Origin: Thraustochytrium sp. TN22
Taxonomy: Eukaryota; Sar; Bigyra; Thraustochytrida; Thraustochytriidae
Assembly: GCA_013306675.1 (NCBI GenBank)
Contig: JABLUY010000352.1
Location: 6,526 to 28,594 of the forward strand
DNA: 22,069 nucleotides
Direction: 5' to 3'
Both the position numbers and the translations under genes were made by a program. The notes under the pieces were generated by a model, which saw nothing but the letters and a program-made list of their open reading frames with translations, was not told the origin of the DNA and searched no databases. Of the stretch, positions 3,857-13,643 are shown piece by piece (the first letter of the stretch is position 1; every line of letters starts with the position of its first letter).

Positions 3857-4879
3857 TCACATTTCGGTCTGCTTCAACTCAAGCCAATGCGACCTGCACA
3901 AGTTCCCAGGCTTAGTGACATGCATGGAACAATGTCGACAGCGACGGCCACCGCCATGCGACTTGCAGTAAATACCAAGACCGCCTGGCTGAGCATACTT
4001 GTCACACCCAGTATGCGCGCACGTCTTGGGCCTGCTGTGTCTGAAGCAGAACGACGACCCGGAACGGCGCTGTCGCTCGCAGTCCAAAGAGGCACACAGA
4101 CGTCCACCGCCGTGCGCACAGCAGAGCGCCACTGAGCCTGTCGGCGCCTTGGCCTTGGTGCATCCCGGAAAGCGGCACCGCCTGCCGCCACCGTGCGCGA
4201 TGCAAAAACGCCGACCGCCCTCACCAGGCTGTGCGCACTTGCCGCAACCCGCGTGCTCGCAACGCTTACCTCCACCGTGAGCCACGCACAGCTCATTCAA
4301 GCCGCCTGTATATGAAACGCCCTTGCTACAACCTGGATGCCGACATCGCATCCCGCCTCCGTGCGCCACGCATCGCCGTATTCCAGGCATGTGCACACCG
4401 TTTGCGCAACCCTGGTGATCGCAAATCATACCGCTTGCGTGTGCCCTGCACAGGCCCTTTTCCACCGCCTTGCGCTTGCACGTGCCCTCTTTGCACCTCG
4501 ACGTGTCCTTGACCAGCTCGCTCAGGTCGATCGTGCCTTTTTCATCAGGCTGCGCAGAGACCTGCTCCAGCGTTTCGGCCGCCACAAACTGCCTGTGCAC
4601 CTCAAAGATCTCCGCCTTGATTTCCTCCACGGTCTGGCACGCCTGCTTTTGCCTTTTCTTTTGCCTTTTCCTTTGCTTTAGCTTTCGCTCTTGCTCTTGC
4701 CCTTGCTCTTGCTCTTGCTCTTGCTCTTGCTCTTGCTCTTGCTCATGCTCTTGCCTCTGGCGTTTCCCGCGGCGCCGCTGTTCAACTTCCGAGACCGTGC
4801 GGCTGCTGCGGCGCCGGCTGTCCTGGAACCATGATAGGAGCAGCCGCCGCGTCGACGCGACGCCGTCCGCGTCCGCCAT
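3857..4879 (-). CDS. Cys/His-rich HGGG zinc-finger repeat protein (340 aa)
   Basis: I start at ATG 4879-4877; the frame is open upstream to 5005 but would overlap the divergent gene's start. Residues 9-16 carry TRRLLLSW. Residues 43-64 are a Glu-Gln repeat encoded by a CTTGCT hexamer tract, and residues 65-110 form a basic helix. From 129 to 331 there are eight finger units of the form C-x4-C-x(9-13)-C-x2-H, most followed by GGG and a basic RC. The ligands begin at C129/C134/C144/H147 and end at C314/C317/C328/H331; the last unit is C-x2-C. Similar repeats are annotated in oomycetes and algae as 'WRKY19-like' zinc fingers; no WRKY domain is visible here. The array probably binds Zn2+ and may act in the nucleus, with DNA, RNA or protein contacts unknown. 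It pairs head-to-head with the gene at 5004-6518, which shares both ends. Confidence 0.8.
   Translation of the reverse strand: MADADGVASTRRLLLSWFQDSRRRSSRTVSEVEQRRRGKRQRQEHEQEQEQEQEQEQEQGQEQERKLKQRKRQKKRQKQACQTVEEIKAEIFEVHRQFVAAETLEQVSAQPDEKGTIDLSELVKDTSRCKEGTCKRKAVEKGLCRAHASGMICDHQGCANGVHMPGIRRCVAHGGGMRCRHPGCSKGVSYTGGLNELCVAHGGGKRCEHAGCGKCAQPGEGGRRFCIAHGGGRRCRFPGCTKAKAPTGSVALCCAHGGGRLCASLDCERQRRSGSSFCFRHSRPKTCAHTGCDKYAQPGGLGIYCKSHGGGRRCRHCSMHVTKPGNLCRSHWLELKQTEM
4684..4756. repeat. (CTTGCT)n hexanucleotide repeat coding Gln-Glu
   Basis: About eleven imperfect hexamers lie in frame in the zinc-finger gene and encode an alternating Glu-Gln run at residues 43-64. Because the unit is six bases, length changes would keep the frame. 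Confidence 0.85.
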
Positions 4880-5003
4880 GCGCCGCGCCGCGCCGCTCGC
4901 GGCTCGTGAACAGGGTCTGCCACCCGCCCGCCTGGCTGCCGGACTGCCTGCCCATCGCCAAGTGGCCGTGAGGATAGCGGCAAACCCCCAACTCCGCGCG
5001 CCC
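4880..5003. promoter_or_regulatory. Putative bidirectional promoter between head-to-head paralogues
   Basis: Only 124 bp separate the ATG of the minus-strand zinc-finger gene from the ATG of the plus-strand gene. The stretch is GC-rich with CGCCGCGCCGCG runs and no TATA-like box that I can see. A shared core promoter is inferred from spacing alone. Confidence 0.4.
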
Positions 5004-6518
5004 ATGGGCGAGGCCGCAGCCGAGACGCGCCGCGTGCTGCTGTCCTGGCTGCGCGCGAGCTATGCCGCCGCCGCCAGCGCCGAGCGCCGGCGTCTTGTCG
5101 CCGTCCTCGACCTCAACGACGACGACCACGACGACCACGACCACGACTTGCGTCGTGCGAGCAAGCGCAAGCAAGACGACGACTTGGACACCCCCTCGAC
5201 GAGCAAGCGCAAGAGGCCGTGCGAGCAACGTGCAGAGAAGCAAGACGAGACGAGCGTCAGAGGCTCTGATGCGCCTGCTGCATCAACATCATCAATCAAG
5301 GCGCAGAATCGGAGAACGGACAGCGCACACAAGCAGTGCGCGGCCGAGAAGTTGAAGTTGCAGAGCAGGAATGCCCAAACGAGCATCGAAGGCACAAAGG
5401 CACCTGCTACATCATCATCATCATCATCATCATTGATCCAGGCGCAGAGCAGGGATGGCGCACACAAGCAAAGCACGGCCGCCAAGGTGCAGAGCAGGAC
5501 TGCCAAGAGCAATGTCCGAACGTTGAGCCAAGGCAAGACGAACATTCAAGGCACTGCCACATCATCATCGGCGTCAACGGCGGCGGCAGCGGCAGCAGCA
5601 GCAGCAACCAAGGCGCAGAGTAGGGACGGCGCACCAAAGCAAAACACGGCCGCCAAGGTGCAGAGCAGGACTGCCAAGAGCAATGTCCGAACGTTGAGCC
5701 AAGGCAAGACGAACATTCAAGGCACTGCCACATCATCATCGGCGTCAACGGCGGCGGCAGCGGCAGCAGCAGCAGCAACCAAGACGCAGAGCAGGGGCGC
5801 AACAGTTCAAAAGATGCCCAGCAGGGCCAAGAGCGAACTCGAGCCGAGCAAAGGCGCGTACACGCCTACGTCGTCGTTGTCATCATCATCATCCAAGTCG
5901 CAGAGCAGCACCACCCTGCAATCCAGGGGCGCAAAGATGCAGAGCACGCCCGCACAGCTGCCGAGCAGAGGCCAAGGCGACGTCCCTACGCCCAGCCGAC
6001 CTAGGAGTCACATCCAAGGCATTGAGGCAGCCATCTCCTCCTGCTCCTCCTCATCATCATCCGGGACGCAGAGCAGCACCAAAATGAAAACCGCGGCCAC
6101 AAACCTGCAGAGCAGGAGCAGGAGCGACATCCAAATACCTAGCGCAACGACCTCAACCGCCGCCACCGTGGCCAAGAGCGCACAGAAGCACGGCGGTGCC
6201 CAGAGTGGTTGTCAAGTGCGACACGACGGCAAGCATGGCATTGTACCCAAGCTGCAGAGCACCATCAAGAGCAATGCCAAAGAAGGAGGGCACAAACCCG
6301 GACCATCTAGCACCGTAACGCCCGCATCCAAGAAGACACTCGGAACCGAAACAAAGGCAGTCTCCAAGATGAAGCGCAGCAAGTCTTCTCAAGCATCATC
6401 ATCGAAATCCGCGTCACGTCCTCGCTGCGTTTATTGCTCTTTGGCTGCAAGAAAACCTGGCAGTCTCTGTAGCAGCCATTGGAGGCAGCTCAAGTCCGCA
6501 TGTGATTACATTTTGTAA
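5004..6518 (+). CDS. Ser/Ala/Lys-rich repeat protein with single C-terminal CxxC-x10-CxxH finger (504 aa)
   Basis: ATG 5004 is chosen because it opens MGEAAAETRRVLLSW, matching the N-terminal motif of the divergent neighbour. The frame is open upstream to 4470, but that overlaps the neighbour's coding sequence. Residues 36-45 are an Asp/His run, and 48-73 are basic with KRKR-like nuclear-signal candidates. Residues 90-470 are low-complexity Ser/Thr/Ala/Lys/Gln with recurring QSR and poly-Ser/poly-Ala blocks, including a 57-residue tandem duplication. Residues 475-492 form one Cys/His unit, C475/C478/C489/H492, with exactly the ligand spacing of the last finger of the neighbour, followed by the same W plus LK pattern. 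The protein is probably largely disordered and nuclear. The shared ends suggest an old inverted duplication after which the finger array was lost here or gained next door. Function is unknown. Confidence 0.7.
   Translation: MGEAAAETRRVLLSWLRASYAAAASAERRRLVAVLDLNDDDHDDHDHDLRRASKRKQDDDLDTPSTSKRKRPCEQRAEKQDETSVRGSDAPAASTSSIKAQNRRTDSAHKQCAAEKLKLQSRNAQTSIEGTKAPATSSSSSSSLIQAQSRDGAHKQSTAAKVQSRTAKSNVRTLSQGKTNIQGTATSSSASTAAAAAAAAATKAQSRDGAPKQNTAAKVQSRTAKSNVRTLSQGKTNIQGTATSSSASTAAAAAAAAATKTQSRGATVQKMPSRAKSELEPSKGAYTPTSSLSSSSSKSQSSTTLQSRGAKMQSTPAQLPSRGQGDVPTPSRPRSHIQGIEAAISSCSSSSSSGTQSSTKMKTAATNLQSRSRSDIQIPSATTSTAATVAKSAQKHGGAQSGCQVRHDGKHGIVPKLQSTIKSNAKEGGHKPGPSSTVTPASKKTLGTETKAVSKMKRSKSSQASSSKSASRPRCVYCSLAARKPGSLCSSHWRQLKSACDYIL
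5410..5434. repeat. (ATC)n trinucleotide repeat coding poly-Ser
   Basis: An uninterrupted ATC/TCA run in frame gives a run of seven serines. Shorter ATC runs recur at about 5560, 5731, 5880 and 6050 in the same gene. Confidence 0.8.
5441..5782 (+). repeat. 171-bp in-frame tandem duplication (two units, 57 codons each)
   Basis: Unit 1 is 5441-5611 and unit 2 is 5612-5782. The two align without gaps, with only a handful of substitutions clustered near the 5' end (around HKQST versus PKQNT), and the last 125 or so bases look identical. A third unit begins (GACGCAGAGCAGG) and diverges at once. Each unit codes a basic QSRTAKSNVRTLSQGK segment followed by Ser and Ala runs. Confidence 0.95.
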
Positions 6519-6789
6519 ACTGCGCTACCACCCATACGACAGTCTTGATGGAAGGCTCGACCTCGGGCAACTCGCTCTGGCACGATGGCATGAGCAACTC
6601 GCTCTGGGACGACTGCATGAGCAATGGCACGAGCAACTCCCTGAGCAACTCGCTCTTGCACAATGTCACGCGCAATGGCACGAGCAACTTCTCGCTCTGG
6701 CACGTTTCCCTCGCTCTGGCACAATGGCGTAAGAGAACGCCTCCCTCTGGCACGGGCAACTCGGTCGCAAAAGATCACGTCAATCTCTT
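6519..6789. repeat. Degenerate repeat region based on GAGCAACTCGCTCTGGCAC
   Basis: From about 6557 to 6755, variants of GAGCAACTCGCTCTGGCAC with ATGGCA spacers recur six or more times at irregular intervals. Short frames stay open on both strands, but none shows a recognisable domain. The tract follows the 3' end of the Ser-rich gene and fills the space where the TPR pseudogene loses similarity, so it may have expanded inside that gene's 3' part. Confidence 0.6.
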
Positions 6790-7646
6790 TCCTCTGCCAG
6801 GTCACCAGACCTTTACTTGCGTGTCGAAACGCTTTCGCGGCAAAAGCCTGCGTGTTGGGATGGTCTGCTCCCATCGCCTCGAGCAGAATGCTCAAGGCCT
6901 GCTCATAGAGGTTCAGGGCGGCGCCTCAGTCCTTTCGGGCGCGGTGCACCCAGGCGAGGTTATTGAGCGAGGCTGCGATGTAGGGATGGCGAGGCCCAAG
7001 GGCTTCTTGACGAATCGACAAGGCTTCCGTGTGGCACCGCATTGCTTGCTCAAAGCTCTCCTGCTTGTCATACACGGAACCCATTTTGTTGAGAGTGTTC
7101 GTCACGAAGACGTCGCGCGTGCCGCACGCTTCTTGCCGAATGGACAGGGACTCCTTGTAACACCGCGGCGCGTCCTCGCAGCGATCCATGTCTGCGTACA
7201 CCATCACCTATGCTGTTGAGCGTCCCTGCCACGTCACGACTCTGCGGCCCGTTGCTTTCTCGAAAAATGGGCAGGCCTCCCTCGAGGCTCCGCAGCGCCT
7301 CTTCGTGTAGGCCATGCTCCTTGTACACGTCACCTATGTTTCTGAGCAAGGTTGCAACCGAAGAATTCCGCGGGCCGAGCTCCACTTTAATTTTAACAAT
7401 CTCCAGGGCCTCGCGATAGTCTTGCAGCGTGCCGTCGTAGTTGCCTTGGGTCGCGAGCACGACCCCCACTTGGTTGAGCACACTCACCATCTCCATCATG
7501 TCGCCGCCTTGCCACCGCGTCTCCTCGACCTTGTCGCGTGGAATACTGGTGGGCCAGTCGCGCTGGCGACGTTGCACGTTTGCGTTCAGCGTTGTATATC
7601 TGTCCGGGAGCTTGTCCTCATCGGCGGCACTGTCGACTTGCCTCAC
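6790..7646 (-). pseudogene. Decayed kinesin-light-chain-type TPR gene (one frameshift, one in-frame stop)
   Basis: Reading the minus strand from about 7499, TPR units follow the usual 42-residue pattern (LNQVGVVLATQGNYDGTL, then LLRNIGDVYKEHGLHEEAL). At 7205 one extra base shifts the frame after TLNSIG; the next frame carries on exactly with MVYADMDRCEDAPRCYKESL and LNKMGSVYDKQESFEQAM, up to LNNLAWVHRARKD. TGA at 6928-6926 then interrupts the helix, and the same frame resumes with GAALNLYEQALSILLEAMGADHPNTQ until about 6790. Two independent lesions inside one continuous TPR array indicate a pseudogene, unless the assembly has errors. No TIR-like domain or good ATG with a folded N-terminus is visible upstream, so the 5' part also seems lost. 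A 152-bp gap separates it from the stop of the next TPR gene on the same strand. Confidence 0.75.
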
Positions 7647-7798: not shown

Positions 7799-10036
7799 TT
7801 AAAGATGCAACGCAGGTCCCCTTTGCTTTTGCAGACGCACAGCGCGATCCCTGGCGGCCATGGCGGGAATAGAATCCTCGCCATGAGCGGTCACCCGAAG
7901 CTCCGCGAGCTCGTCCGCGTAGATGCACGCGAGTCCCCAATCCTTGAGCGAAGAGCACACGTCGATGAGATCGGTGAGGACTTCGTCCGTAAGGTCTTGC
8001 TGCGTAGATCTGGCGGGCTTGCAAAGGTCGTACGTTTGCTGCAGACATCGGACCGCAGCTTGAGGGCGACCCGCTTCTCTGTGGAGACGCGCGATCGCGT
8101 GGAACATGCCTGGGAGCTCGGTAAAAACGAGAGCGTCGTCGTACAAGATGCAGAGCGCATCCAAGGCACGCTCCGACAGGACCGCGCCGCGCCGCCAGTC
8201 GCCCTGCATCGTGCAGAGGCTGGCGTAGGTGGAATAGAGCATAGGCTCCACTTCGTGCAGCACGAGCTCCCGGGCCACGGCAAGAGCTCGGTCCAAGGCG
8301 GCGCGCGCATCATTGAAGCTACCAATCTTCATGAAAGCGCCGGCCTGAGCGTCGCAGGCGGCAACTGCGATGAGCCCACGATCCGCCCTCCGCTGCCGCA
8401 TGCGATCAATAAGCACCAGAGCCTCGGCGTGACGGCCCTCCGCCACGTGCAAAGATGCCGTCACTTTCAAGACGGAGTCTACAGAGTACGAGTGGAAGGC
8501 GGCCGCCTCGTCCGATGCGAACTGCGCCGCCTCGTCCAGACATCTGGCCGCCGCTTGGAGCTCCTCCTGCTCCACGTACGCCTCGCCCATGAATTTCAGC
8601 AGGCCCGCCTTGCGAAGTCGCGCCGCAGCGCCCGACTCGCCTCGGGCGCGCTCCAGTGCCTCCTTCCACACCTCCAGCGCCTCGCCGTGTCGTCCCGCGC
8701 GCATGTGCACTTCGCCCAGGCTCTCCAACACCGCGCACACGCGATCATCGCCCGGATCCAGCGCGTCCAAGGCGATGCGTAAAGCTACCTCCAAGAACTC
8801 CTGCGCCTTGGCGTACCGGATCCAACACAGATAGAACTCCCCCAGAGCGCTCAGCGTCTTAATCGTCGTCGGGTCTTCCGCGCCCCGCGCGGACCGCTGC
8901 AGGTCGAGCGCCTCCTCCAGAGTCTCCAGCGCCGCCTTCGCCTCGGACGAGTCCATCATGAAGCGCCCCAGCCCCAGCAGCATGTCAGCCGCGCCATCCA
9001 CGTCTCCCTGCGCCTGCAAAGCATCCGCCCTGCCCCGCGCGCTGCGCTTGAGCCACCCCACGCGCAGTTCTCTCACGCGCGCGTTCACGGTGGCAAAGCC
9101 GTCCCCGTCTTCCTCTTGTTCTTCCATGACTTGCATCAGCGCCGCGTCCTCGCTCGTGCGCTCGCGCGCCGCGCGCCGCGCGTCCACCTCGTCGCGGAGA
9201 CTCCACGCCACTTCCTCGGGCCGGCGCAACATCGCCGCCCAGAAGGCCTCCTCCTCGCCGGCACAGAACGCCGCGCTCACCATCGTCGCCTCGCCCACGT
9301 TGGCCAGCTCCCATATGCACCACGCGCGCTGCACCAGGGAGGGCCGCTCCCAGGCGTCCAGGACCGCCACCACGCCGCCTTGGAAGAGGCCCAATGCGTG
9401 CCGCAGCCCGTGCTTTACGAAGCGTCGCTCGCTCGCCGCCGCTGCCTGGCGCTGCGCCGCACAAAACACGTCCAGCCACACGTACGCATCCTCGCCCACA
9501 TGTGACGCCAGGGCCTCGACAAGGTCCACGAACCGCATCTCATGCGCATGCACGACGTAGCAGCCCTCGAACCGTCGGCTCGTCTCCGCTTCCATGTACG
9601 CAATGTACGGCCGCTGCTGCGAGCCCGTCGCTGCCGCCCCCACCACGAACATGGCCACGTCCGCCGTCGTCCAGTCCTCGCGTCGCACCTCTCGCGCGTT
9701 CGCCCCGAGGACCACCTCGACCACCACGTCCTGCCCGTCGTCGCGCCTCCTTTTGGCGCGCACGACCCCGGGCTGCTCCAGCCGGGCCAGCACCTGCAGC
9801 CGCGTCCCCTCGCCCACGCCGGCGTCCACGTCCTGCGTGGTCTCCACGAGCTCCACGTCCGCCGCCTCGTTCTCCGCCACGCCCTGCAGCCACTGCACGC
9901 TCACGCATCTGTAGTCCACGCGCCCCTCGCGCTCCTCCTCCAGCGCCGCCAGCGCGTGCGCGTGCGCGTGCCTGCGCGCCGCGCGCTCGCCCTGGCGGCT
10001 GCCGCGCAGCAACCGCCGCGCGCTGCGTCGGAGCAT
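7799..10036 (-). CDS. TIR-like domain plus TPR array protein A (745 aa)
   Basis: I start at ATG 10036-10034 (MLRRSARRLL); the frame is open to 10192, but the upstream residues are not conserved in the paralogue. Residues 1-44 are Arg/His-rich. Residues 45-87 share a pattern with the paralogue at 11544 (VS..L, DV, G-T-x-L, A-x-LE). REDWTT is at 119-124. Residues 160-244 follow the order of a TIR fold: a strand (YVVHAHE), helix (RFVDLVEAL), strand (YVWLDVFC, 185-192), helix, then strand and helix VLDAWERP...RAWCIWEL, with Glu243 where TIR NADases have the catalytic Glu of WCLxEL. From about 330 on, diverged TPR-like repeats (roughly nine, such as LESLGEVHMRAGRHGEALEVW) run almost to the end. 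No NB-ARC or P-loop is visible. The likely role is an intracellular sensor or scaffold; NAD cleavage is an inference. Confidence 0.8.
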   Translation of the reverse strand: MLRRSARRLLRGSRQGERAARRHAHAHALAALEEEREGRVDYRCVSVQWLQGVAENEAADVELVETTQDVDAGVGEGTRLQVLARLEQPGVVRAKRRRDDGQDVVVEVVLGANAREVRREDWTTADVAMFVVGAAATGSQQRPYIAYMEAETSRRFEGCYVVHAHEMRFVDLVEALASHVGEDAYVWLDVFCAAQRQAAAASERRFVKHGLRHALGLFQGGVVAVLDAWERPSLVQRAWCIWELANVGEATMVSAAFCAGEEEAFWAAMLRRPEEVAWSLRDEVDARRAARERTSEDAALMQVMEEQEEDGDGFATVNARVRELRVGWLKRSARGRADALQAQGDVDGAADMLLGLGRFMMDSSEAKAALETLEEALDLQRSARGAEDPTTIKTLSALGEFYLCWIRYAKAQEFLEVALRIALDALDPGDDRVCAVLESLGEVHMRAGRHGEALEVWKEALERARGESGAAARLRKAGLLKFMGEAYVEQEELQAAARCLDEAAQFASDEAAAFHSYSVDSVLKVTASLHVAEGRHAEALVLIDRMRQRRADRGLIAVAACDAQAGAFMKIGSFNDARAALDRALAVARELVLHEVEPMLYSTYASLCTMQGDWRRGAVLSERALDALCILYDDALVFTELPGMFHAIARLHREAGRPQAAVRCLQQTYDLCKPARSTQQDLTDEVLTDLIDVCSSLKDWGLACIYADELAELRVTAHGEDSIPAMAARDRAVRLQKQRGPALHL

Positions 10037-10280
10037 GCTTCTTGATTGAGAAGTGAAGCTCGCACGCGAATTCTTTGATTGCAACTTGTTGAAGAAGGTG
10101 AAGCGGCAGTGTGTGTCATGTGCGCGCGGCAGCGATGACGAGCGCGTTTGAACAACTTGAACAACAAGACACGTAGGCCTACTGCACGACAAATCATGAT
10201 CAGTGACAGGCGAGCGAGCTGCCCGCCCAAGGATGGGAACTCTCCGGAAGCTGGTTATGTTACACTTTCTTAGTTATTCG
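10037..10280. promoter_or_regulatory. Short spacer: promoter side of TIR-like/TPR A and 3' end of the INO80C-like gene
   Basis: This 244-bp spacer separates two minus-strand genes. It is less GC-rich than its flanks. The end nearest the INO80C-like stop is A/T-rich and, in transcript sense, reads GTGTAACATAACC, a possible cleavage or polyadenylation region. No other motif is clear. Confidence 0.4.
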
Positions 10281-11117
10281 TTAGGCGGCGTCGAGACGTG
10301 CACGTACACGAGCGCGCTCGTCAGCAATGATGCGAAGCGCCTCGTGAAAGGGCGCTGTCGCAGACGCCCGCACCCATGCAGGCGGCTGCTCACGGAGCTG
10401 CTCAAAGGCACGCGCATGCGCATAGTACAAGGAGCTCTCAGGGTCCTTGTACGGCGCAGGCAAGCCCGTGATTGCACAGAGCTTGCGGGCTGGGTAGCGA
10501 GGCTCGCCAGCGCGCGCAGAAAAGTAGTCCGGCGCATCCACGTCCGCAACCGAGGTTGCAAGACTCAGCTTGCGCGCGTTCTCGTCCAGCAAAATGTCAG
10601 CCAGCGCACGCACCTTGCGCTTGGGCTTGGGCTTTGCGGCCGCCGCCGACGCAGCAGTCGCCTTCTTGCCGCCCGACGCCGTAGCGGCCACCGCCTTTTT
10701 GGCCTTTTTGCTGGCTGCGCGCTCGCGCTTGCGCGCGCGCCCCGACGCGGCCCGCTTGCGCGAAGCCGCGGCGGCTCCCGGCGCCGCGCCGCCCGCCTCG
10801 CTCGCGTCCGAGTCCGAGTCGGCCTCGGACGCAGGCTCCTCGAAGGCGTCGCTGTCCCCGTCGTCGCCGCCGTCGTCGGCGTCGCCTTCGATGAGCGCGT
10901 CGCCCACGTTGGTGCTCTCCAGCCGCTCCACGCGCGCCTCGCGCTTGCGCTGCAGCGCGTCCACGCCGTCGTACGCCGTCCACCGCCGCGTCTTTTGCCG
11001 CCGCTCGCGCTTCTCCGCATCCGCGCGCGTCGTGCGCCGCCGCCCGCCCGCGCCATCCGCCGGCAGCCGCACGCCCAGCTCGTCCTGCAGCGTGTCGCCC
11101 CACCCGTCGCGCCCCAT
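10281..11117 (-). CDS. INO80C/IES6-like: YL1_C-domain protein, INO80C/Ies6-like chromatin-remodelling subunit (278 aa)
   Basis: ATG 11117-11115 (MGRDGWGDTL) is chosen; the frame is open to 11330, but that part does not look protein-like. Stop is TAA 10283-10281. Residues 25-70 are basic and helical, 78-107 an acidic Asp/Glu/Ser tract, and 115-170 a Lys/Ala/Arg-rich linker with nuclear-signal-like clusters. Residues 170-245 hold the conserved part: LADILLDE, then PDYFSARAGEPRYPARK and CAITGLPAPYKDP...YYAHARAFEQLRE. This matches the YL1_C domain and specifically the layout of Ies6/INO80C (ILxSE, then NYFS, then GLxAxYTDP), which binds in the Arp5 module of the INO80 nucleosome remodeller. SWR1 subunit YL1/VPS72 also ends in YL1_C, but its N-terminal histone-binding part is not recognisable here. 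It is nuclear by inference and is transcribed divergently from TIR-like/TPR B. Confidence 0.8.
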   Translation of the reverse strand: MGRDGWGDTLQDELGVRLPADGAGGRRRTTRADAEKRERRQKTRRWTAYDGVDALQRKREARVERLESTNVGDALIEGDADDGGDDGDSDAFEEPASEADSDSDASEAGGAAPGAAAASRKRAASGRARKRERAASKKAKKAVAATASGGKKATAASAAAAKPKPKRKVRALADILLDENARKLSLATSVADVDAPDYFSARAGEPRYPARKLCAITGLPAPYKDPESSLYYAHARAFEQLREQPPAWVRASATAPFHEALRIIADERARVRARLDAA

Positions 11118-11543
11118 CCTCCCTGCGCTACCCGGCGGCCCGCCCCGGCCTTCGAGCTTTGATTGTCTTTGTTTGTTTGCTGACTGTGTCAGACTCGGAG
11201 CAACGGTGATGATGAGAGACCAGAATGACAGAATCGTCACAATCAAGAACCGACTCGGAGCCGCGAGCGTGCCGCCGTGCAGCGGCGTGGCGTGACCGTC
11301 GCAAGATCGTATCGTATACCTGGCTTGCAACGACTTGTCAGGTGGTTTGCGGCGCTGCCTGCACGGCGCTGTGCGGCACGATCATCATCTCAGACTGGCG
11401 CACACACACCCTTGCCAAATGGGATCCGCAGACGACCGACCGCAGCCTGCCAGTGGCGCAGCCTGGCGTAGCCCGGCGGCACGCGCCAGCCGTGGCCGAA
11501 GTATCAATCTCGCAATACGCAGGCTCAGGCTCGGAATCGCGCG
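11118..11543. promoter_or_regulatory. Divergent intergenic region between the INO80C-like gene and TIR-like/TPR B
   Basis: These 426 bp hold the promoters of two divergent genes. The part near 11160-11260 is less GC-rich, with AAACAAACAAAG on the minus strand and a repeated GACTCGGAGC at about 11192 and 11250. I see no TATA box and no coding potential. The leader just before ATG 11544 is rich in GGCTCAGGCTCGG-like sequence. Confidence 0.4.
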
Positions 11544-13643
11544 ATGGCCGAAGCGCGGCTGACGCCGGTGAGCCTGCGGCTGCTGCGTGCGCTGCAGACT
11601 GGGGTGGAGAGGGAGCTGGTCGCGGAAGACGTGCGGCTCTTCGTGGCGCAGCGCGACCTGAGCGAAAAGGTAAGGCGAGGGTCGACGCTCGTGCTCGTGG
11701 CCGACCTGGAGGGCGACATCAAGCAGGGCAAGGCAGCGCATCAGCAAGACGCCGTCTGCCTCTTCGTGGACGGACTTGACGCCATCGAGAAGCGCCGCGA
11801 GGACTGGACCACGGAGGACGTGGCGCAGCATGTCCTGTGGCCGCGCATGCCGAGCGACACGAGGCGATACACAGAGTGCTGCGCTCCATCAGGCCTCGGC
11901 AAGCCAGCGCAAGGCGCCTACGTGTGCCATGCGCGCGGAGCGCGCTTCGCAGACCTCGTCAATGCGCTGCTCGCAGCGCACGCGGACCAGGACATCAACG
12001 AGGCCTTCGTGTGGATCGACGTCTTTTGTGAGGACTTTGCCGTCGGACCCGCGCGCCAACAAGAAGCCGCGCTGCGCATCGAGCGCACCGTTGCCGCCAT
12101 CGCCAGCTTCGACCGCGTCCTCGCCGTTTTGGACGCATGGGACGAGCCCGCCATCCTGGGCCGCGCCTGGTGCACGTGGGAACTGCTCACCGCGGAGCGC
12201 AAAGGCCGCCCCGTGGAACCCGCGCTGCCGCCCACCCAGCGCGAAGACTTCGAGCAACTGCTGCTAAATCAACCTGACGAGGTCGTGCGCGCGCTCAGCG
12301 CCGACTTTGACGCGCGCAACGCGCAGACCAGCCTCGCCACCGACCGAGCGGCCCTGGCCAGCGCCATTGACTCCACCCTCCAAGGCGGCCATGCCGCGCT
12401 CAGCACGCAACTCAACGCGCTCGCGCGCACCTGGATTACGCGCCTCGCACGAGACGCCGTAGATGCTGCAAAACATACCGCCGCGCAAGAATCCTCCTCC
12501 GCCTCCTCCTTCGCCTCCTCCTCCTTGACATCCTCCTCCCCGGCCCAGGTGCTGCACAGCCACTTGCTGGACCGCCTCGCACTCGTGCTCACGGCGCAGA
12601 CACGCCTGGACGAGGCGCTCCTGGCCGCCGAGGAGGCGCTCGAGCTGCGTCGACGCACCTGCGGCCCGCATCACGCCGACGTGGCCGCCTCGCTGCAGGC
12701 CACAGGCCGCATCCTGCTCAAGCTGGGTCGCACCGACGAGGCGCGCGACCGCCTCGACCAGGCGCTCCACACCCGCAGACAAGTGCTCGGCCCGCGCCAT
12801 GCCAGCGTCGCCACCACGCTCAACGCCATCGGCCAGATTGACGCGGCCGAGGGCCGCCTCGACGATGCCCTGCTTGCATACCAGGAAGCCCTCGAGCTCC
12901 TGCGAGACGCGCTCGGGCCGCGCCACCCAGACGTGGCGGCCGTTCTCAACAACCTTGCCATGACATACCACGCGCAGGGCCGCAGCGACGAGGCCCTCCG
13001 CCTCTGCGACGAGGCGCTTCACATTGGCAAGGAGGAGACGCTTGGCCCGCGCCACGCGCACGTCGTCACCACGCTCAACAACATGGCGCTCGTCCTCGGT
13101 GACTGCGGCCGCCACGACGAGGCGCTACGCCGCATGGAGGAGGCGCTCCAAGTCGCCACCAAGACGCGCGGTCCGCGCGACCCGGTCGTCGCCAGCACGC
13201 TCTCCAATATCGCTGCGGCGCTCTGCCACCACGGGCGCTACGACGAGGCGCTGCGCCACATGCACGAGGTCCTCGCACTGCGCCGCGATCTCCTCGGCCC
13301 GGCTCACCCGGACACCGCCGCTGCGCTCGCCGGCATCGCCCGTCTGCACTTCGCCGAGGGCCGCCTCGACGAGGCGCTGCGCTACCACCTCGACGCGCTG
13401 CGCATCTACGAGTCCTCTCCCTTACCGTCGCCTCCTCACGATCTCGCCGCCGTGCATCAGGACATAGCCGTCATCCACGAGGCGCAAGGCCATTTACCTG
13501 CCGCCGTCGATGCCTGCACTCGAGCTCTCCGTGTCTTGCAGCACGCCCCGCTGCCCCCGGACAATGCGCAGCTTGCCGACATCAACGCCCATCTCCTCGC
13601 GCTGCGTCGTCGTCGTCGCGCGGCTCGTTGTCTCGTGCAGTGA
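11544..13643 (+). CDS. TIR-like domain plus kinesin-light-chain-type TPR protein B (699 aa)
   Basis: ATG 11544 opens MAEARLTPVSLRLL. Residues 9-56 match the N-terminal module of protein A. REDWTTEDVA is at 85-94. Residues 125-214 show the TIR-like order: YVCHARG, helix RFADLVNAL, strand FVWIDVFC (155-162), helix, then VLAVLDAWDEP...GRAWCTWEL, with Glu213 at the position of the TIR catalytic Glu. Residues 315-334 are a Ser-rich linker. Residues 340 to about 680 form eight regular 42-residue TPRs of the kinesin-light-chain type, with LGPRHPDVAA-like turns and LNNLA/EAL signature helices. The array therefore appears as 126-bp in-phase repeats in the DNA at about 12560-13580. The C-terminus is Arg-rich. 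Protein B's TPRs are closer to consensus than protein A's, and nearer to those of the pseudogene. Probably cytosolic; ligand and partner are unknown. Confidence 0.85.
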   Translation: MAEARLTPVSLRLLRALQTGVERELVAEDVRLFVAQRDLSEKVRRGSTLVLVADLEGDIKQGKAAHQQDAVCLFVDGLDAIEKRREDWTTEDVAQHVLWPRMPSDTRRYTECCAPSGLGKPAQGAYVCHARGARFADLVNALLAAHADQDINEAFVWIDVFCEDFAVGPARQQEAALRIERTVAAIASFDRVLAVLDAWDEPAILGRAWCTWELLTAERKGRPVEPALPPTQREDFEQLLLNQPDEVVRALSADFDARNAQTSLATDRAALASAIDSTLQGGHAALSTQLNALARTWITRLARDAVDAAKHTAAQESSSASSFASSSLTSSSPAQVLHSHLLDRLALVLTAQTRLDEALLAAEEALELRRRTCGPHHADVAASLQATGRILLKLGRTDEARDRLDQALHTRRQVLGPRHASVATTLNAIGQIDAAEGRLDDALLAYQEALELLRDALGPRHPDVAAVLNNLAMTYHAQGRSDEALRLCDEALHIGKEETLGPRHAHVVTTLNNMALVLGDCGRHDEALRRMEEALQVATKTRGPRDPVVASTLSNIAAALCHHGRYDEALRHMHEVLALRRDLLGPAHPDTAAALAGIARLHFAEGRLDEALRYHLDALRIYESSPLPSPPHDLAAVHQDIAVIHEAQGHLPAAVDACTRALRVLQHAPLPPDNAQLADINAHLLALRRRRRAARCLVQ
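12560..13580 (+). repeat. 126-bp-period coding repeats (eight TPR units)
   Basis: Each 42-codon unit repeats GGCCCGCGCCA...GACGAGGCGCT-like blocks, as in 12640-13370. Units differ at many positions, so this is an old array kept by protein selection. Recombination between units, or with the other TPR genes nearby, would keep the frame. Confidence 0.8.

Follow-up and report, generated by a model that had tools for sequence, protein, structure and literature searches.

A thraustochytrid protein family joining a remote TIR/HET-like domain to TPR arrays: candidate intracellular receptors with no visible NTPase switch

TIR domains that cleave NAD+ are known from SARM1 and from plant TIR proteins, and the TIR domains of animal Toll receptors act by assembly and partner recruitment. 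To our knowledge, little is known of the immune receptors of single-celled marine protists. A search of the open-licence literature returned no paper on thraustochytrid or "labyrinthul-" TIR domains, and the main text of a comparative-genomics paper on thraustochytrids (PMC12258536) contains none of the terms tetratricopeptide, kinesin light chain, NLR or immun-. In fungi, the HET (PF06985) proteins, including the HET-NACHT-WD40 type, form a large family in which an N-terminal effector is followed by a repeat array. According to portions of two papers (PMC12881547, PMC10890737), the HET domain is sufficient for fungal cell death, by a killing mechanism described as unknown; elsewhere, the first of these describes the HET/TIR module as having NAD+ hydrolase activity. 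HET is described as related to TIR, with homologues in stramenopiles, in a section of Dyrka et al. 2014 (PMC4986451), and a functional Glu common to HET and TIR is noted in part of a 2022 review (PMC9153377).

The proteins described here share the layout of the fungal HET proteins, an N-terminal putative effector followed by repeats. They differ from them in having no significant match to the Pfam HET model, an extra N-terminal region, no NACHT or NB-ARC in the chain and a non-fungal host. They also resemble the plant TNP/XTNX (TIR-NBARC-TPR) proteins in carrying a TIR or TIR-like domain and TPRs in one chain, a likeness drawn from the description of the plant proteins in an excerpt of the same review (PMC9153377), but no NB-ARC was found in chains of this family.

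The window, a stretch of 22,069 nucleotides from Thraustochytrium sp. TN22, contains two such proteins. Protein A (7799..10036, minus strand) is 745 aa long from its first ATG, at 10036; the frame remains open to 10192 on the same strand, giving 797 aa (7799-10192) if counted from the TTG used by the ORF finder. Protein B (11544..13643, plus strand) is 699 aa long. Each begins with a region common to the family, DYR.VS...L...V ... G..L ... REDWTTxDV in A, which the N-terminal alignment places, with approximate bounds, at 9566..9916 (minus) in A and 11562..11912 (plus) in B. Next comes the TIR/HET-like core, at 9233..9565 (minus) in A (YVVHA ... VWLDVFC ... VLDAW ... RAWCIWEL) and 11913..12257 (plus) in B (YVCHA ... 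VWIDVFC ... VLDAW ... RAWCTWEL), delimited approximately by its motifs and by comparison of the family profile with TIR. A TPR array follows, again with approximate bounds, at 7913..9025 (minus) in A (Pfam TPR_12, 7.5e-24) and 12702..13610 (plus) in B (TPR_12, 8.5e-79), where it is of the kinesin-light-chain type with 42-aa units.

An earlier note on this DNA had read the motifs YV.HA, RF.DLV.AL, VW[LI]DVFC and VLDAW..P....RAWC.WEL as the outline of a TIR domain, and all of them are present in both proteins. The candidate catalytic Glu of the WxxxE motif is, as that note had numbered it, residue 243 of A counted from the ATG (codon 9308..9310, minus strand) and residue 213 of B (codon 12180..12182, plus strand). 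The motifs go beyond chance: 52 family rows, A and B among them, repeat the same set and its order with only a few deviations.

A YL1-type gene (10281..11330, minus strand; PF08265, 9.9e-11) lies between A and B and is outside the system. Adjoining A is a truncated, frame-broken third family copy (about 6506-7646, minus strand; from the ORF list, by eye), made up of the C-terminal end of the domain and then TPRs split over frames. The other genes of the window are of F-actin-bundling, zinc-finger, ABC-transporter and MoaC type, a content that points to a eukaryote. The WRKY19-type zinc-finger gene (3857-5005, minus strand) is overlapped on the opposite strand by a long low-complexity ORF (4470-6518, plus strand), with a similar C-terminal motif at its end. 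Elsewhere in the genome, a 3044-aa frame (2540 bits to PfaA) stands beside an oppositely oriented 2083-aa frame, an arrangement we take to be the PUFA-synthase layout of thraustochytrids and a sign of a thraustochytrid host.

A search of the 37.9 Mb genome (453 contigs) with the domain of A gave 113 match rows at E<=1. At E<=1e-3 there were 106 rows, which merge into 102 places on 79 contigs, and at 1e-5 there were 93 merged family places; all these counts are lower bounds. The domain was read in 55 frames, about half of the family places, the other half being mostly weaker matches. Excluded from the count of 52 rows are L016 and L033, whose frames are cut by stops, and L032, whose gene is already represented by the second ORF of L041; the tree additionally omits L055. 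The frames read have the N-terminal region, the domain and a further stretch in that order, and TPRs then follow in those frames that were scanned. Some members form local arrays, for instance on contig C448 (21825-41644), where six rows follow one another on a single strand. Judged by these comparisons, A and B belong, as divergent members, to a family of about 100 genes and are not an isolated pair. The two had been called paired, and they are indeed adjacent, but we found no evidence for a functional pair and rejected the idea: they are only 36-37% identical and sit on separate long branches of the tree. A branch with support 96/89 splits them, although the exact placement of such long branches is unsure, as the program warned.

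Searches with single sequences gave no clear identity for the domain. At E up to 10, no Pfam TIR or HET model was among the families listed for A or B. Among 45 family members, HET matched two (best E 0.079) and ThsB_TIR, the best of the TIR-type models, matched one (E 0.2), neither significantly. The PADLOC model of ThsB, the TIR-like protein of bacterial Thoeris systems, gave weak matches in 5/45 members (best E 0.0097) and to the family consensus (0.041), while the 120-aa core of the consensus matched nothing in PADLOC. In contrast to ThsB, the family has no confirmed relative in the prokaryotic collection (39 pattern matches) or the viral collection (64 pattern matches). Several other matches were set aside. 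PepSY_2, the most frequent weak Pfam match (6/45 members, best E 0.015) and the only one to the family consensus (0.01), was taken for chance, as was WVELL (one of 45 members, E 0.0015), though both score better than HET or ThsB_TIR. NCBIfam returned 12 unrelated families with one member each and no significant family for the domain, and a profile search of solved structures returned four immunoglobulin-binding protein A chains (E 0.13-0.3), likewise rejected as chance.

Comparison of profiles was more informative. The family profile was aligned by hhalign with a set of 16 TIR domains, 13 hand-picked from bacterial plasmids and three from the same genome, giving a score of 34.2 (Prob 47; E 2e-4 for a single comparison). 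None of 400 column-shuffled profiles reached this value (mean 13.3, maximum 24.2); the reversed profile scored 11.0, and profiles of the TPR part and the N-terminal region scored 11.0 and 11.7, respectively. Leaving out one TIR at a time gave 28.4-39.3, with all 16 sets above the best shuffle. The match nevertheless depends on the mixed TIR set, since the score fell to 23.6 with the 13 bacterial domains alone (a value exceeded by one of the 400 shuffles, which were made against the full set) and to 17.3 with the genome's own three. The alignment is colinear, running through strand A (FVSQAR with FLSHxS), helix A, VWLD with xWLDe, a helix and a strand, and ending with the family WCxxEL on the TIR WxxxEL.

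In this respect the domain resembles the NADase TIRs, being alignable at profile level from strand A to WxxxE with Glu on Glu; it departs from TIRs in that TIR models do not recognise it singly and that more residues separate VWLD from the helix after it. The earlier proposal that the last motif lines up with a TIR motif bearing a catalytic Glu agrees with the alignment to bacterial and own-genome TIRs, where the family Glu falls on that of the TIR W..xE. As for TIR homology in general, a remote kinship at profile level stands, but a Pfam TIR match does not accompany it. Three TIR matches over the Pfam cut-off occur in the genome (L001, L002 and L003); read by eye, the frames suggest a TIR joined to ARM/HEAT-type repeats in L001 and to ankyrin repeats in L003.

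The family profile also aligned with L058 (C110:185600-187400), a protein of the same genome with a HET domain over the Pfam cut-off and MORN repeats. The score of 39.5 was reached by none of 400 shuffles (maximum 21.4), and the match is a single 26-column segment with a shared VFVWxDxxCxxQ. By eye, HET blocks of the types FVSHxW, VWIDxxCxxQ and RxWxxxE stand in the same order in L058 and in the family, but hhalign aligns VWxDxxCxxQ only, over those 26 columns. Compared with the TIR profile, L058 scored 19.6, which is not significant; it has no relative among solved structures or plasmids, and in the genome it matched only itself. Taken together, the profile comparisons suggest that the domain likely belongs, remotely, to the TIR/HET superfamily, with HET as a further candidate relative beside TIR.

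Of the 52 rows, 51 retain the WxxxE Glu (E172 in L017 numbering); it is lost only from L055, the one copy read among the six on C448. This answers a question raised by the earlier note, which had made conservation in homologues a check on the Glu, and it fits either a catalytic or a structural role. Four other residues, W108, D110, W168 and W171 (L017 numbering), are each kept in 52/52 rows, so that the conservation may be structural. The domain could accordingly be a TIR/HET-like scaffold that assembles and recruits partners without catalysis, the Glu having a structural function. We consider this rather unlikely: the Glu survives in 51 divergent rows while other motif positions vary, and TIRs that serve only as scaffolds are often without this residue. 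An adaptor role for HET has, on the other hand, been proposed in a passage of Dyrka et al. 2014 (PMC4986451).

A and B do not represent the family well. They match 39 and 43, respectively, of 60 conserved columns (differing at 21 and 17), which ranks them third and fourth least conserved among the 52 rows, and they are the only two to have lost His142 (L017 numbering), kept in the other 50. Being among the least conserved and the only rows without this His, they would be poor choices for a catalytic test. They may themselves be altered or decaying versions; that they are in decay, or have neofunctionalised, and no longer carry the ancestral activity seems to us quite possible, if somewhat short of probable. 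The family alignment shows B to lack most of the LT.GLH.AI segment and a broken copy adjoins A, in keeping with decay, but each protein has an open frame of some 700 codons or more that retains WxxxE, VW[IL]D and the TPRs.

The earlier description of a TPR array with no visible NB-ARC or other NTPase holds for both proteins and extends to other members. Against Pfam at E up to 10, all 14 families matching A are TPRs or other helical repeats, and the best 25 of 26 families matching B include no NTPase. Nine further family frames scanned at E<=0.01 all have TPRs and no NTPase, one of them (L047) judged on the best 25 of 27 families and another (L054) cut at both ends. The genome does encode such NTPases (NB-ARC, two over the cut-off; NACHT, seven singly over the cut-off and three more with their neighbours), but none lies in a frame with any listed family row, as judged from coordinates and frame lengths. 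The family thus differs from NLR (STAND) receptors in having no central NB-ARC or NACHT in A, B or 9/9 other frames. With no NTPase switch detected in the chain, any assembly of these proteins would depend on the TPRs, the N-terminal region or a partner.

The TPR arrays of other members carry a distinctive pattern of variation. In a scan that listed only periods of 126 or its multiples, 4 of 21 sequences had tandem repeats of 126-bp period, with 79-96% matches. From 57 frames, with L032 counted beside L041, 136 TPR units were extracted by a motif anchor, and 142 close pairs of units (at least 27/42 residues identical) were obtained from 14 proteins, which do not include A or B. In these pairs the mismatch was 0.617 at positions 2, 5, 9, 12 and 13 vs. 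0.098 at the other 37, and only 2 of 20000 random five-position sets were as high. These five positions form the ligand face of the TPR; mismatch was also raised at positions 31 and 41, the latter about one helical turn before position 2.

The ratio pN/pS in the 14 proteins was 1.29 at the five face positions vs. 0.29 at the rest, and 1.28 (bootstrap over proteins 1.09-1.48) when positions 31 and 41, picked after seeing the data, were added. At these seven positions pN exceeded pS in 10/14 proteins. The ratio is a simple Nei-Gojobori count, the pairs are non-independent and several of the 14 proteins are close kin. Between paralogues (12 pairs; units with at least 25/42 residues identical), 164/265 comparisons differed at the five positions vs. 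140/1855 at 35 others. The TPR part had a higher nonsynonymous/synonymous ratio than the domain in all 11 paralogue pairs of one set; in the youngest clade the domain dN/dS was above that of the TPR part in 4/5 pairs, with few changes. Among L018, L025, L028 and L030 (five pairs), the domains are near-identical (pS about 0.02-0.05) and the TPR parts more diverged (0.06-0.29), a contrast that may stem from recombination or gene conversion among the copies, or from repeats that were paired wrongly.

A comparable case has been described in Podospora, where, according to a portion of Dyrka et al. (PMC4986451), the TPRs of one NLR have positively selected sites on the concave side. The 14 members thus resemble fungal NLRs in the variability of their repeats on the binding face, and the family resembles a part of such receptors, a repeat sensor with a diversifying face, in these members and not in A or B. 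The suggestion that the TPRs act as a sensor therefore gains from the hypervariable positions of other members, but the pattern is not seen in the two proteins for which it was made.

The best relatives of the TPRs of B among solved structures are chains of kinesin light chain 1 (2.2e-43), and single-sequence searches give no TIR or HET call. Both points would suit cargo or cytoskeletal adaptors, that is, TPR proteins resembling kinesin light chains, with an alpha/beta domain specific to the lineage and no immune link. We find this improbable in view of the roughly 100 family places, the pN/pS above 1 that the near-identical repeat units of 14 members show on one helix face, and the profile similarity to TIR and HET. 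A second alternative is that the proteins serve allorecognition, in the manner of fungal het genes, sensing unlike kin after contact or fusion rather than pathogens. The HET-like segment of the domain speaks for it, and fungal HET genes are described in parts of two papers (PMC10197012, PMC10890737) as large variable families, several of them controlling incompatibility. The present data do not separate alleles from paralogues, however, and we hold allorecognition to be equally improbable.

The reading we favour, and judge modestly probable, is that of an intracellular receptor family in which a TIR/HET-type effector is joined to a diversifying TPR sensor without an NTPase switch. The N-terminal half would be a divergent effector domain of the TIR/HET superfamily that keeps the WxxxE Glu, and the C-terminal half a kinesin-light-chain-type TPR superhelix whose helices A bind a ligand or partner through their inner face. 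Recent duplicates would keep the effector and the TPR framework and change the face residues, yielding a set of recognition specificities. Ligand binding by the array may then bring effector domains together, as happens in other TIR proteins. The assembled domains would signal or kill, most likely through the action of the Glu on NAD+ or a related nucleotide, or else recruit partners.

The sequence comparisons establish the family, the conservation of its motifs, its domain order, its remote profile similarity to TIR/HET and, in members other than A and B, the diversified TPR face. From these we infer for the family a fold, self-assembly, NAD cleavage, cell death and an immune role, and the evidence speaks more strongly for the receptor logic than for the chemistry. 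A fuller proposal, which we put forward tentatively and regard as somewhat doubtful in its entirety, is that thraustochytrids, unicellular stramenopiles, possess about 100 intracellular receptors that diversify fast. In these, a hypervariable TPR sensor would act directly, with no NTPase switch in between, on a nucleotide-cleaving domain of TIR/HET type, and the receptors would form an NLR-equivalent system of immunity or self/non-self recognition. If true, this family would represent a receptor design that dispenses with the NTPase switch; it would also connect the HET proteins of fungi with TIR proteins and make the chemistry of HET-like domains testable outside fungi.
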